This document shows, piece after piece, positions 34,211-39,249 of a DNA stretch of 64,000 bases. The stretch covers positions 85,393 to 149,392 of the forward strand of contig JAHEDZ010000001.1 in NCBI GenBank assembly GCA_024640955.1, in the 5' to 3' direction. A program made the translations under genes and the position numbers. Positions within the stretch are counted from its first letter, which is position 1; every line of letters begins with the position of its first letter. Below the pieces are notes generated by a model, which ran no database searches, was not told the origin of the DNA, and was given only the letters and a program-made list of their open reading frames with translations. Origin of the DNA: Oceanospirillaceae bacterium. GTDB lineage: Bacteria; Pseudomonadota; Gammaproteobacteria; Pseudomonadales; Balneatricaceae.

Positions 34211-36472
34211 ATGCAACAAGATCTAATGGTTACCAAACGCGACGGACGCAAAGAGCCGATCGATCTGGAGAAAATTCACAAGGTACTGATGTGGGCCGCG
34301 ACCGGGCTGGAGACGGTATCAGTCTCCCAGGTTGAGCTCAGTTCGCACCTGCAGTTTTTCGAAGGCATTAGCACCACAGATATCCACGAGACGCTAATCA
34401 AGTCGGCCGCGGATCTGATCTCGGAAGCGGCGCCAGACTACCAGTACTTGGCGGCTCGTCTCGCCGTATTCCACCTGCGCAAAAAGGCTTTTGGTGATTT
34501 CGAACCCCCACACCTCTACACTCATGTGCAGAAGATGGTCGGTGACAAGCGCTATGACCAGCACCTGCTAGAAGATTACACCGAGGCAGAGTTCAATGAG
34601 ATGAATGACTACCTCAAGCACGACCGCGATATGGATTTCAGCTACGCTGCTGTTAAGCAGCTTGAGGGTAAGTACCTGCTGCAGAACCGCGTTACCGGCG
34701 AGATCTACGAAAGCCCGCAGCAGCTCTACATGCTCGTAGCGGCTTGTCTCTTCTCTAAATATCCACAAGAGACGCGTCTGGACTACATCAAGCGCTTTTA
34801 CGATGCCTGTTCTCAATTCAAACTGTCGCTGCCGACGCCGATTATGGCGGGTGTGCGTACACCAACGCGCCAATTTAGCTCCTGTGTCTTGATCGAGACT
34901 GGCGATAGCCTGGACTCAATCAACGCTACAGCCTCTGCGATTGTTAAGTATGTGTCCCAGCGTGCCGGTATCGGTATCAACGCCGGTCGTATCCGCGCGC
35001 TCGGTAGTCCGATTCGCAACGGTGAAGCGTTCCACACTGGCTGCATTCCGTTTTACAAACACTTCCAGACGGCGGTTAAGTCCTGTTCACAAGGCGGTGT
35101 TCGCGGCGGTGCGGCGACGCTCTTCTACCCGATCTGGCACTACGAAGTGGAGTCACTGCTGGTATTGAAGAACAACCGCGGTGTTGAAGAGAACCGTGTG
35201 CGTCATCTCGACTACGGTGTACAGCTGAACCGTTTGATGTACCAGCGCCTGATCAAAGGTGGCAACATCACACTGTTCAGTCCGCACGAGGTTCCGGGCC
35301 TCTATGACGCCTTCTTCGCTGATCAGGAGAAATTCGAAGAGCTTTACGTTAAGTACGAGGCAGATCCAAGCATTCGTAAGAAGACGATGAAAGCGGTTGA
35401 GTTGTTCGGCATACTCGCTTCAGAGCGAGCCTCGACAGGTCGTATCTACATCCAGAACGTCGATCACTGTAACACTCACAGCCCGTTTGATCCGGCTGTG
35501 GCACCGGTTAAACAGTCCAACCTCTGTCTGGAGATCGCACTGCCAACCAAACCGCTTGAGCATGTTAATGATGAAGAGGGTGAGATTGCACTCTGTACCC
35601 TCTCTGCCTTTAACCTCGGCGCACTGTCGAACATGGATGAACTCGAAAACCTCGCTGATCTGATCGTCCGAGCCCTCGATAACCTGCTGGATTACCAGGA
35701 CTACCCGGTACCCGCAGCCTATAACGCCACCATGGGCCGCCGTACGCTGGGTGTCGGCGTGACTAACCTTGCATACTATCTGGCGAAGAACGGTGTGAAG
35801 TACTCTGATGGCTCAGCGAATGGCCTAGTGCACCGCACTTTCGAAGCGATTCAGTACTACTTGCTGAAGGCGTCTAACGGTCTAGCTAAAGAGTTGGGCG
35901 CCTGCCCTAAATTCGACGAGACGACCTATGCGAAAGGGTTGCTGCCGATCGATACTTACAAGCGGGAAGTGGACGACTTCTGTGAAGAGCCACTGCACTA
36001 CTTCTGGGAGACACTGCGCGAGGATATCCGCGAGTTTGGCCTGCGTAACTCCACGCTAACGGCACTAATGCCGTGTGAGACATCGTCACAGATCACAAAC
36101 TCGACTAACGGTATTGAACCACCGCGTGGCTTTGTATCAGTGAAATCGAGCAAAGATGGTGTAATGAAGCAGATTGTACCTGAGTACCTTGAGCTGAAAG
36201 AGAACTACGAGCTGCTCTGGAGCATCCCGAACAACGAAGGTTACCTGCAGCTTGTGGGCATCATGCAGAAATTTGTGGACCAGGCGATCTCGGCGAACAC
36301 TAATTACGATCCGGTGAAGTTTCCGAACGACAAGGTTCCAATGAAACAGCTGCTTAAAGACCTGTTGACCGCTTATAAGTACGGTGTAAAGACGCTCTAC
36401 TACCATAACACCCGCGATGGTGCGTCAGACCAGCAGGACGAGGGGTGTGAAGGCGGTGCTTGTAAACTCTGA
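34211..36472 (+). CDS. nrdA: Ribonucleotide reductase class Ia, alpha subunit
   Basis: Reduces ribonucleoside diphosphates to deoxy forms, 753 residues. The N-terminal ATP-cone (VTKRDGRKEPIDLEKIHKVL) gives dATP inhibition. Active-site residues are visible: Cys in FSSCVLIETG, the NLCLEIALP block with Asn, Cys and Glu, Cys in ALCTLSAFNLG, and the radical-path tyrosines in KTLYYHNTRDG. The redox-shuttle pair is in GCEGGACKL at the C-terminus. It leads nrdB by 92 bp. Confidence 0.97.
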   Translation: MQQDLMVTKRDGRKEPIDLEKIHKVLMWAATGLETVSVSQVELSSHLQFFEGISTTDIHETLIKSAADLISEAAPDYQYLAARLAVFHLRKKAFGDFEPPHLYTHVQKMVGDKRYDQHLLEDYTEAEFNEMNDYLKHDRDMDFSYAAVKQLEGKYLLQNRVTGEIYESPQQLYMLVAACLFSKYPQETRLDYIKRFYDACSQFKLSLPTPIMAGVRTPTRQFSSCVLIETGDSLDSINATASAIVKYVSQRAGIGINAGRIRALGSPIRNGEAFHTGCIPFYKHFQTAVKSCSQGGVRGGAATLFYPIWHYEVESLLVLKNNRGVEENRVRHLDYGVQLNRLMYQRLIKGGNITLFSPHEVPGLYDAFFADQEKFEELYVKYEADPSIRKKTMKAVELFGILASERASTGRIYIQNVDHCNTHSPFDPAVAPVKQSNLCLEIALPTKPLEHVNDEEGEIALCTLSAFNLGALSNMDELENLADLIVRALDNLLDYQDYPVPAAYNATMGRRTLGVGVTNLAYYLAKNGVKYSDGSANGLVHRTFEAIQYYLLKASNGLAKELGACPKFDETTYAKGLLPIDTYKREVDDFCEEPLHYFWETLREDIREFGLRNSTLTALMPCETSSQITNSTNGIEPPRGFVSVKSSKDGVMKQIVPEYLELKENYELLWSIPNNEGYLQLVGIMQKFVDQAISANTNYDPVKFPNDKVPMKQLLKDLLTAYKYGVKTLYYHNTRDGASDQQDEGCEGGACKL

Positions 36473-36501
36473 GGCTTAGCGCCGCAGTAAATGGATTCTG
36501 T

Positions 36502-36521
36502 AGACCGGCTGTTTGCGGTCT
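36502..36521 (+). repeat. Hairpin between nrdA and nrdB
   Basis: AGACCG-gctgtttg-CGGTCT, six pairs, with no U-run. It lies between the nrdA stop and nrdB start and may tune the stoichiometry of the two subunits. Confidence 0.5.
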
Positions 36522-36564
36522 GCGTATACGCAATTGATGTTTATAATGGAGTGGTTCTACGCGT

Positions 36565-37695
36565 ATGTCTTACTCTACTTTTAATGCAAGTTCACATGAT
36601 GCGACGCTCGAGCCGATGTTCTTCGGCCGCAGCGTTAACGTAGCCCGTTACGATCGTCAGAAGTACCCAATTTTCGAGAAGTTGATTGAGAAGCAACTCT
36701 CCTTTTTCTGGCGTCCTGAAGAGGTCGATCTGAGCACCGACCGTAAGGATTTTATGGCGCTGCCGGAACACGAGAAACATATTTTCCTGTCGAACTTGAA
36801 GTACCAGACACTGCTGGACTCGGTGCAGGGACGCTCGCCTAACGTAGCATTCCTACCGATCACCTCGCTGCCGGAACTCGAAACCTGGTTCGAGACTTGG
36901 GCGTTCTCTGAAACGATCCACAGCCGCTCTTACACCCACATCATCCGTAACATCGTGGCTGAGCCATCGGTAGTTTTTGATGAGATTGTGACCAATCCTG
37001 AGATCGTGCGTCGCGCTGAATCTGTCACTCGTCTCTACGACGAGCTGATCGAGCTAGTTAACATACACACAGTTCATGGCTCTGGTACTCACACACTTGG
37101 CGGTAAGACCTACGATACTTCAGAGTATAACCTTAAAACCAAGCTCTACCTGACGCTGGTTTCAGTTAACGTACTGGAAGCGATCCGCTTTTACGTCAGT
37201 TTTGCCTGCTCCTTCGCGTTTGCCGAGCGTGCGCTGATGGAGGGTAACGCCAAGATTATTCGCTTGATCGCGCGTGACGAAGCGCTGCACCTGACAGGTA
37301 CTCAACACATGATCAATCTGATGAACTCAGGTCGTGATGATGCCGACTTCAAACAGATCGCTGAAGAGTGCAAGCCTCAGGTGGTTGAGCTATTCCGCGA
37401 AGCGGCTGAGCAGGAGAAGGAGTGGGCTGAGTACCTATTCAGCCAAGGCTCAATGATCGGACTGAACGCGCGTATTCTCGGTGATTACGTGGAGTACATC
37501 ACCAACGTACGTATGAAGGCGATTGGCCTTGAGGAGCTTTTCCCGGCACGTACAAACCCACTGCCCTGGATGAACTCATGGCTGGTGAGCGACAATGTGC
37601 AGGTTGCGCCGCAGGAGTCTGAGATCAGCTCGTATCTGGTAGGCCAGATCGATGCCGATGTGGACACCGAAGACTTCGACGATTTCGATCTATAA
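36565..37695 (+). CDS. nrdB: Ribonucleotide reductase class Ia, beta subunit
   Basis: Diiron-tyrosyl-radical subunit, 376 residues. The radical tyrosine is Y123 in [11 protein letters not shown], matching Y122 of E. coli NrdB. Diiron ligands lie in [24 protein letters not shown] and [13 protein letters not shown]. The acidic C-terminus ([14 protein letters not shown]) is the tail that docks on NrdA. An E. coli-like 36-bp run follows before the ferredoxin. Confidence 0.97.
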
Positions 37696-37705
37696 GAGGT
37701 CGTCG

Positions 37706-37969
37706 ATGTCGGGCATTCCACGCATCAAGGTGAACCATCACCACACCTTTTACTATCAGTACGAGTTTTCGCTGCTTGATGCGTTGGAGGTTCAAGAGAT
37801 ACCGGCGCAGTACAACTGCCGTGGTGGCTACTGTGGAATCTGCAAAGTTCGTCTGATCGATGGTGAAGTGGAGGATGTGCAGGATATCCTTGTCGACCTC
37901 GCTGACGATGAGATCCTTGCCTGTAGTTGCAGACCCAAAGGGCATATAGAAATTGAACTGCCTGATTGA
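37706..37969 (+). CDS. 2Fe-2S ferredoxin, YfaE-like
   Basis: Plant-type ferredoxin of 87 residues. Cluster cysteines are in YNCRGGYCGICKVRL (Cx4Cx2C) plus LACSC. The start at 37706 has an AAGAGG site; an earlier in-frame start at 37652 lies inside nrdB. The E. coli homologue YfaE, also downstream of nrdAB, maintains the diferric-tyrosyl cofactor. That role is inferred from context. Confidence 0.9.
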   Translation: MSGIPRIKVNHHHTFYYQYEFSLLDALEVQEIPAQYNCRGGYCGICKVRLIDGEVEDVQDILVDLADDEILACSCRPKGHIEIELPD

Positions 37970-38215
37970 CCCGCGCATATTCAAAAAAATCATAAAAAAA
38001 GCAAGTTCTCGGACTTGATTTCTTGAGTTCTACACAGGGCATGACATTTGTGCCATCAAATTTAACTATTTTTACAGATTTCTTGAAAAACCCCGTTGAC
38101 ATACGTAGGGTATTGATAAATAACAGTTTTATTTTTGTGGTGATTTTTGCACCAATTCGCTGAAGCCCCTGTATTTCCTACTTTTGCGGTACTAATCCAA
38201 AAACAATTCACAGAG

Positions 38216-38254
38216 TTATCCACAGATGCTGTGAGTAACTTATTTTGTGGATAA
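38216..38254. promoter_or_regulatory. Inverted pair of perfect DnaA boxes
   Basis: TTATCCACA at 38216-38224 and its reverse complement TGTGGATAA at 38246-38254 are both exact E. coli DnaA-box consensus, 30 bp start to start. A weaker TGTGAGTAA lies between (about 38230). The 350 bp around (37970-38325) contain no gene, are AT-rich at 38115-38160, and include a TTGACA at 38096 followed by an AT-rich -10-like stretch. The boxes lie about 70 bp before the patatin start. Confidence 0.65.
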
Positions 38255-38325: not shown

Positions 38326-39249
38326 ATGAAAAGATATCGGATTTTGTGCCTCGATGGCGGCGGTATTCGAGGTTTTATCACAGCCCGCCTAATTGAACGC
38401 CTGCAACAGGAGCATCCGGGTTGGCTGGAGCAGGTTGATCTAATCGCGGGTACATCGACGGGAGGGCTTTTGGCACTTGCGCTAGCGAGTGGAAAATCAC
38501 CTGCCGAGGTTTGCCAACTCTACTTAGATGCGGGCGAGACTATCTTTGATGACTCGCCGCTGGATGATCTGAAAGACCTTGGTCGACTGGTTGGTGCTGA
38601 TTATTCAACAGCACCGCTCAGACGCGAGCTGGAACAGACATTCGGCCGGCTCAGCCTAGCGCAGCTCGATAAGAAAGTTGCCATACCCGCTTTTGATCTC
38701 GACAATGAAGCTGCAGATCCGATTGAGCGCAGCTGGAAACCCAAGATTTTTCATAACTTCAGCGGGAATGATTCCGACGGGCATCAGGATGTCGCTAAAG
38801 TAGCCCTATACACCAGTGCTGCACCCACCTATTTTCCATCAGTTGATGGCTATATCGATGGTGGTGTTTTTGCGAATAACCCAAGTTTGGTCGCTTTAGC
38901 TCAGGCGATTGCGAAGGATAACCACCACTCGGAGCGGGCAGAACTCCATGAGGTGGTTATGCTCTCTATTGGTACCGGAGCTGCAAAGAGTTATATCGAG
39001 GGAGAGACGCTTGATTGGGGTTTGACTCAGTGGGGCGGCCATCTGATTGATCTATTGATGGATGGCATGGCCGGGATTTCCGATTATCAATGTAAACAGC
39101 TGCTAGGCGAGCGCTACGCGAGACTACAGGTTGAGTTGGAGGATCCGATAGAGCTAGATGACCCGAGCCAGCTTGAGTTGATGGATCGCATCGCCAGCCA
39201 ACAACAGCTGGACGAGATGGCAGACTGGCTCAAGGAGCACTGGTTGTAG
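38326..39249 (+). CDS. Patatin-like phospholipase
   Basis: Lipid acyl hydrolase of 307 residues. The oxyanion loop DGGGIRG is at residues 10-16, the nucleophile Ser44 in GTSTGG, and the catalytic Asp178 in YIDGGVFANNPS. There is no signal peptide or membrane segment, so it looks cytosolic. The layout is like the CapV/plant-patatin branch. In CBASS such enzymes pair with a nucleotide cyclase, but none is present here, so a defence role is unsupported. A long AT-rich region with DnaA boxes lies in front. Confidence 0.9.
   Translation: MKRYRILCLDGGGIRGFITARLIERLQQEHPGWLEQVDLIAGTSTGGLLALALASGKSPAEVCQLYLDAGETIFDDSPLDDLKDLGRLVGADYSTAPLRRELEQTFGRLSLAQLDKKVAIPAFDLDNEAADPIERSWKPKIFHNFSGNDSDGHQDVAKVALYTSAAPTYFPSVDGYIDGGVFANNPSLVALAQAIAKDNHHSERAELHEVVMLSIGTGAAKSYIEGETLDWGLTQWGGHLIDLLMDGMAGISDYQCKQLLGERYARLQVELEDPIELDDPSQLELMDRIASQQQLDEMADWLKEHWL

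Follow-up and report, generated by a model that had tools for sequence, protein, structure and literature searches.

A probable DARS-type core downstream of nrdAB in an Oceanospirillaceae bacterium and its recurrence in Gammaproteobacteria

In Escherichia coli, DARS elements recharge the replication initiator DnaA with ATP. To our knowledge, little is known of DnaA recharging outside enteric bacteria. We analyzed a 64,000-nt stretch of an Oceanospirillaceae genome (hereafter the window; coordinates are positions within it), where DnaA boxes cluster in intergenic DNA 3' of nrdAB and just before a patatin-like gene. Upstream lie nrdA, nrdB, and a ferredoxin gene, and 71 bp separate the last box, ending at 38254, from the patatin ATG at 38326. 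What are these boxes for? The initial annotation had described two exact TTATCCACA boxes on opposite strands with a weaker box between them, and all three are present where it placed them. It overlooked a further weak box, CAATTCACA at 38204-38212 (+), which is part of the conserved unit described below. The features of the locus are as follows.

34211-37695, plus strand: nrdA and nrdB, encoding ribonucleotide reductase (context)
37706-37969, plus strand: 2Fe-2S ferredoxin gene after nrdB (context; start chosen within an ORF listed from 37652)
38028-38036, plus strand: TTCTACACA, a distal box resembling a DnaA box, on the same side as the IHF site (aligned columns give the consensus TT.T.CACA)
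38106-38118, plus strand: IHF-like site TAGGGTATTGATA, at -110 from box II, one mismatch to TAAnnnnTTGATW
38139-38153, plus strand: GGTGATTTTTGCACC, at -77, the place of Fis in many relatives; more than one mismatch to the Fis consensus
38153-38168, plus strand: conserved block CAATTCGCTGAAGCCC between the IHF site and the core, from an alignment of 45 family loci
38204-38212, plus strand: DnaA box III, weak, CAATTCACA, in the same direction as box II and 3 bp from it
38216-38224, plus strand: DnaA box II, the strong core box, TTATCCACA, exact
38230-38238, minus strand: DnaA box I, weaker, TTACTCACA, head to head with box II and 5 bp from it
38246-38254, minus strand: extra exact DnaA box, TTATCCACA, mostly not conserved
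38326-39249, plus strand: patatin-like gene (context; outside the conserved unit)

DnaA boxes are not enriched in the window as a whole (TTWTNCACA observed twice against 3.35 expected), and exact TTATCCACA occurs only at 38216-38224 (+) and 38246-38254 (-). The host genome (2.59 Mb in 42 contigs) contains 23 exact boxes, and simple arithmetic from this density predicts ~0.006 exact pairs no more than 30 bp apart genome-wide; hence the close exact pair is unusual. Read on the minus strand, boxes I, II, and III form the core TTACTCACA-5 bp-TGTGGATAA-3 bp-TGTGAATTG.

To establish which boxes form a unit, we fetched 83 loci of the host's family around the ferredoxin gene and placed 82 of them (L167, with no ferredoxin match, was dropped; L164 offers just 228 bp of downstream DNA). 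An exact plus-strand TTATCCACA was present within 800 bp downstream of the ferredoxin gene at 52 of the 82 loci. Across these 52, every offset from -40 to +40 of the exact box was scanned on both strands, allowing up to two mismatches. A box occurred at the box I offset (+14, opposite strand) in 49/52 loci and at the box III offset (-12, same strand) in 45/52, the next-best offset reaching 18/52. At the offset of the 38246 box, a box with up to two mismatches was found in only 8/52. The pair 38216/38246 flagged in the initial annotation therefore does not hold as a unit, the conserved one being 38204/38216/38230; a triplet of 38216/38230/38246 with spacers of 5 and 7 was dropped on the same scan. 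Using a looser definition, a core was found within 1 kb downstream of the ferredoxin gene in 66/82 family loci compared with 1/1,640 shuffled stretches. These 66 fall among the 74 loci whose ferredoxin identity is at least 70%, and 16/82 loci had no core within that distance. At the genome level, TTATCCACA-N5-TGTGNNTAA occurred in 63 of 116 family genomes, and a reversed control pattern gave no match in the same 116. The check in relatives that had been proposed for the boxes thus returned a strongly conserved three-box unit. In one family genome (G022, L071) the element is retained with a DDE transposase gene standing between it and the ferredoxin gene, and five family loci (L123, L126, L131, L139, and L155) carry two cores within ~2 kb downstream of the ferredoxin gene.

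The geometry of this unit is that of the E. coli DARS core, in which the three boxes have the same spacing at DARS1 as at DARS2 and box I is opposed to boxes II and III (PMC5742627); spacers of 5 and 3 and the box orientation are as in E. coli. DARS1 reads TTATCCACT-5-TGTGGATAA-3-TGTGTATTA and DARS2, in the rppH-mutH intergenic region, TTATTCACC-5-TGTGGATAG-3-TGTGAAGAA, the same three-box core with box I reversed. As a control we scrutinized nine E. coli regions: DARS1, DARS2, datA, oriC/mioC, nrdA, polA, purH, nrdD, and priA. All except priA are sites in the ChIP-seq table of PMC11317965, from which rpoH, rne, the dnaA promoter, and dnaN were left out. Only DARS1 and DARS2 had the core geometry; it was absent from the datA, oriC/mioC, nrdA, polA, purH, nrdD, and priA regions. 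As here, a weak box lies 3 bp before TTATCCACA at E. coli nrdA, polA, purH, and oriC (PMC11317965). Unlike the window element, however, the double boxes at these four sites have no head-to-head third box at +14. Genomic address also differs, in that E. coli DARS1 adjoins uvrB on its upstream side, 397 bp from its start, whereas the window element lies between nrdAB-ferredoxin and the patatin-like gene; the window neighbors match neither the uvrB nor the mutH neighborhood of the E. coli DARS loci. Judged from sequence and conservation, the feature is probably the core of a DARS-type DnaA-reactivating element. A role of the boxes in regulating DnaA, raised at the outset, is likewise likely.

The flank on the box III side was then compared with that of DARS1 and DARS2. 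Taking TAAnnnnTTGATW as the IHF consensus (PMC8682772), the window copy has a phased one-mismatch site at -110 on the box III side. E. coli DARS2 has its IHF site, TAATGCATTGACT, at -99 on the same side and in the same strand relation, so the window site lies one helical turn farther out. DARS1, in contrast, has no IHF consensus within one mismatch at -130 to -80. Fis sets the copies further apart. In E. coli DARS2, IHF lies between the core and Fis (PMC4245941), and the exact Fis match, at -137, falls beyond the IHF site. Class relatives instead carry theirs at -78, on the core side of IHF. No match to the Fis consensus within one mismatch was found at -150 to -40 of the window copy, nor was a DARS2-type Fis site found beyond its IHF site. 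As there is no Fis beyond IHF and the Fis of relatives lies inside, the window copy is, strictly speaking, not a DARS2; our best reading is that its layout, with Fis between core and IHF in relatives, would be unlike that of E. coli DARS2. Among 66 family elements, 46 had an IHF site at -114 to -107 and 20 did not; at the Fis place, 6/66 matched exactly and 32/66 within one mismatch, with ~7.4 expected. An alignment of 45 family flanks, including two short fragments, placed the conserved blocks on the box III side in the order distal box, TAAnnnnTTGA, CAATTTGCTGAAGGCC, and core. The CAATTTGCTGAAGGCC-like block (38153-38168 in the window) is strongly conserved in the family and fits none of the DnaA, IHF, or Fis consensuses.

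The host genome holds a second copy. Of its 23 exact boxes, only two have the core geometry: the window copy and TTATTCACAgagTTATCCACAggctgTGTGGGTAG (L022, G000:C32:156481-156510), on the same contig 33 kb away and ~7 kb past the window end. The latter sits between queE and a cation-efflux gene (the queE label was assigned in this analysis; Pfam gives a Radical SAM domain). It carries a perfect IHF site, TAACTTATTGATA, at -110 and a perfect Fis site, GGTTAAAAAATAACC, at -78, and so comes closer to the class layout than the window copy does. As a control, only 1 of 20 host boxes without core geometry had an IHF site at -115 to -95. Another genome of the host's genus (G047) also has a core in the queE/cation-efflux neighborhood. 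Genes for DnaA, Fis, and IHF alpha are present in the host, as is one for a shorter protein resembling DnaA, taken here for Hda.

Given this second copy, we searched the class by boxes alone with the pattern CACN4YTATCCACAN6GTGNNTAA. It matched in 190 of 369 sampled class genomes, representing 147/272 genera; 179/369 had no exact match, and the control pattern was absent among the matches listed. From the matches listed, 90 class loci were examined, chosen without regard to IHF or Fis, which yielded 89 scored cores (L253 covers the same place as L201, L282 contributes two cores, and the flank of L207 is incomplete). An IHF site with at most one mismatch was found at -112 to -108 in 53/89 cores, compared with ~0.3 expected, and at -101 to -97 in three others (~0.3 expected); 33/89 had a site in neither band. 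Related genomes are represented among these cores, and binomial values therefore overstate their independence. Kinship was considered by grouping flanks at least 60% alike, giving 72 groups of which 39 had the IHF site, while looser cut-offs chain nearly all class cores into one group. Exact Fis sites were similarly concentrated, with 29/89 cores having one at -78 and 35/89 at -79 to -77, against a mean over offsets of 0.15.

The neighbors of these class loci were diverse: priA was found at 25/90, polA at 4/90, and rppH at 3/90. The cores at the 25 priA loci, for example L185, L208, and L216 (Methylomonas), lie directly beside this gene, which encodes the replication-restart helicase. The three cores near rppH were considered as the DARS2 locus and dropped, as they sit 3' of rppH and E. 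coli DARS2 sits 5'. Cores adjoining uvrB were found in Shewanella fodinae (L215) and in two other class genomes (L313 and L314), all oriented as in DARS1 and 363-388 bp from the uvrB start. An IHF site was present at L313 (-111) and at neither L215 nor L314. In the L313 genome (G523), which is listed in the host's class, UvrB is 92% identical to E. coli UvrB over 298 residues, pointing to Gammaproteobacteria as that class. Outside the class, where the box pattern is less telling, it matched in 11/75 genomes. Of eight out-of-class loci examined, IHF lay at -109/-110 in two, and exact Fis matches at -77/-78 were seen in three. Two of these loci from the same phylum, L304 (G550) and L306 (G525), combine the core with IHF at -109/-110 and exact Fis at -77/-78.

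Could the element instead serve transcription, either as a DnaA-dependent roadblock at the end of nrdAB-ferredoxin or by tuning the promoters of neighboring genes? The family context lends itself to this idea, since nrdB adjoins the ferredoxin gene in all 30 family loci that hold upstream DNA; moreover, E. coli DnaA binds upstream of nrdA (PMC11317965), and priA and polA stand beside class cores at the frequencies given above. Yet the element is located 3' of the operon, its distance to the ferredoxin gene being 194-900 bp across the family, the E. coli nrdA boxes lack the core geometry, and the same module recurs at unrelated loci. Promoter-like matches at the element place numbered one against 1.2 expected, and no terminator-like site was found there. 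We consider such a regulator unlikely. For the regulation of nrdAB proposed in the initial annotation, the constancy of the neighbor in the family stood, whereas the downstream position of the element and the presence of the module elsewhere, including beside queE, mean that nrdAB control is not needed to account for it. The nrdAB neighborhood may be only an address.

A datA-like site, at which DnaA and IHF drive ATP hydrolysis on DnaA or boxes simply titrate the protein, shares with the window intergenic DnaA boxes, including one double box, and an IHF site (for datA, PMC10380432). E. coli datA, however, read as a region rather than box by box for boxes 2, 3, and 7, lacks the head-to-head box at +14 that is conserved here, and passive titration leaves the fixed IHF distance unexplained. 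In relatives, chromosomal position also differs. Measured from dnaA in 15 family genomes assembled into one or two contigs, the nrd element has a median position of 0.58 of the half chromosome (range 0.43-0.97; element positions for this arm comparison were partly rounded, and the host assembly comprises 42 contigs). On the same scale, E. coli datA lies nearer oriC at 0.20, while DARS1 and DARS2 lie at 0.66 and 0.41 on opposite arms. Three family genomes (G005, G006, and G017) have a second core on the other arm at 0.57-0.63. These three also have further pattern matches near the origin at ~0.12, and elements occur off mid-arm in G047 (0.97) and G079 (0.87), all of which disfavors a strict mid-arm rule. 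Membership in datA, as first suggested for the boxes, is not supported, the E. coli datA boxes lacking this geometry, and a datA-like function is unlikely, ranking slightly below transcriptional control in our estimation.

Direct control of the patatin-like gene by DnaA would suit the 71 bp between them in the host genome. At this place, however, a patatin gene is present at only 1/82 family loci, the host's own, compared with 66/82 for the core, and no promoter-like sequence was matched between 37994 and 38326. This suggestion of the initial annotation has accordingly been abandoned, and we regard patatin control as very improbable. Among the matches listed, the closest relatives of the patatin protein reach 55-62% identity at best and belong to other groups, for example Acidovorax and Methylomonas; together with the absence of patatin from the other 81 family loci, this suggests horizontal gain of the gene. 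The idea that the inverted boxes encode an RNA hairpin or terminator is just as improbable: boxes II and I do form an imperfect inverted repeat with a 5-nt loop, yet the stem pair at box position 5, which is free in the DnaA consensus, is possible in only 24/66 sequences, and there was neither an Rfam match nor a terminator-like site. A replication origin, despite the cluster of DnaA boxes in AT-rich intergenic DNA, is hardly credible, as had been recognized from the start, because dnaA lies on a different contig, all eight 8-kb blocks of the window show positive GC skew with no switch, and 0/90 class loci matched dnaA, dnaN, mnmG, or mioC.

We return to the reading of the feature as a DARS-type element. 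DnaA molecules on boxes I and II of DARS meet head to head, which stimulates ADP release (PMC8682772). In the host, ADP-DnaA would bind boxes III, II, and I, and the molecules on the head-to-head pair I-II would touch via their AAA+ domains and release ADP; the freed DnaA could then be reloaded with ATP in time for the following initiation. IHF, bound at a distance of 110 bp, would bend the DNA and bring the regulatory arm to the core, and Fis at -78 would assist in those copies that possess a Fis site. The window copy, in which no Fis match within one mismatch was found, may function with just IHF. DnaA binding, ADP release, and a role in initiation timing are inferred here from work in E. 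coli.

Whether this arrangement is the general form is, in our judgment, evenly poised: the core with Fis at -78 and IHF at -110 could be a general, perhaps ancestral, gammaproteobacterial DnaA-reactivating module that changes its address (nrdAB, queE, priA, polA, or uvrB) and keeps its inner distances, with DARS1, which has no IHF site, and DARS2, whose Fis site lies beyond IHF, as derived forms. The kind of element is already known; what departs from E. coli DARS2 is the place of Fis, between the core and the IHF site. Species closely related to E. coli are described as sharing the DARS2 layout (PMC4245941 and PMC5742627), and a review mentions DARS-like sequences across many proteobacteria (PMC10380432); some of the spread seen here may therefore be published already. 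Among the literature titles and abstracts listed, we found no description of a DARS beside nrdAB or priA, or of the -78/-110 layout. The class layout thus presents an order of IHF and Fis different from that of E. coli DARS2, and, defined by only a few distances, it predicts sites in 190/369 class genomes, which would make the reactivation model testable in many species.
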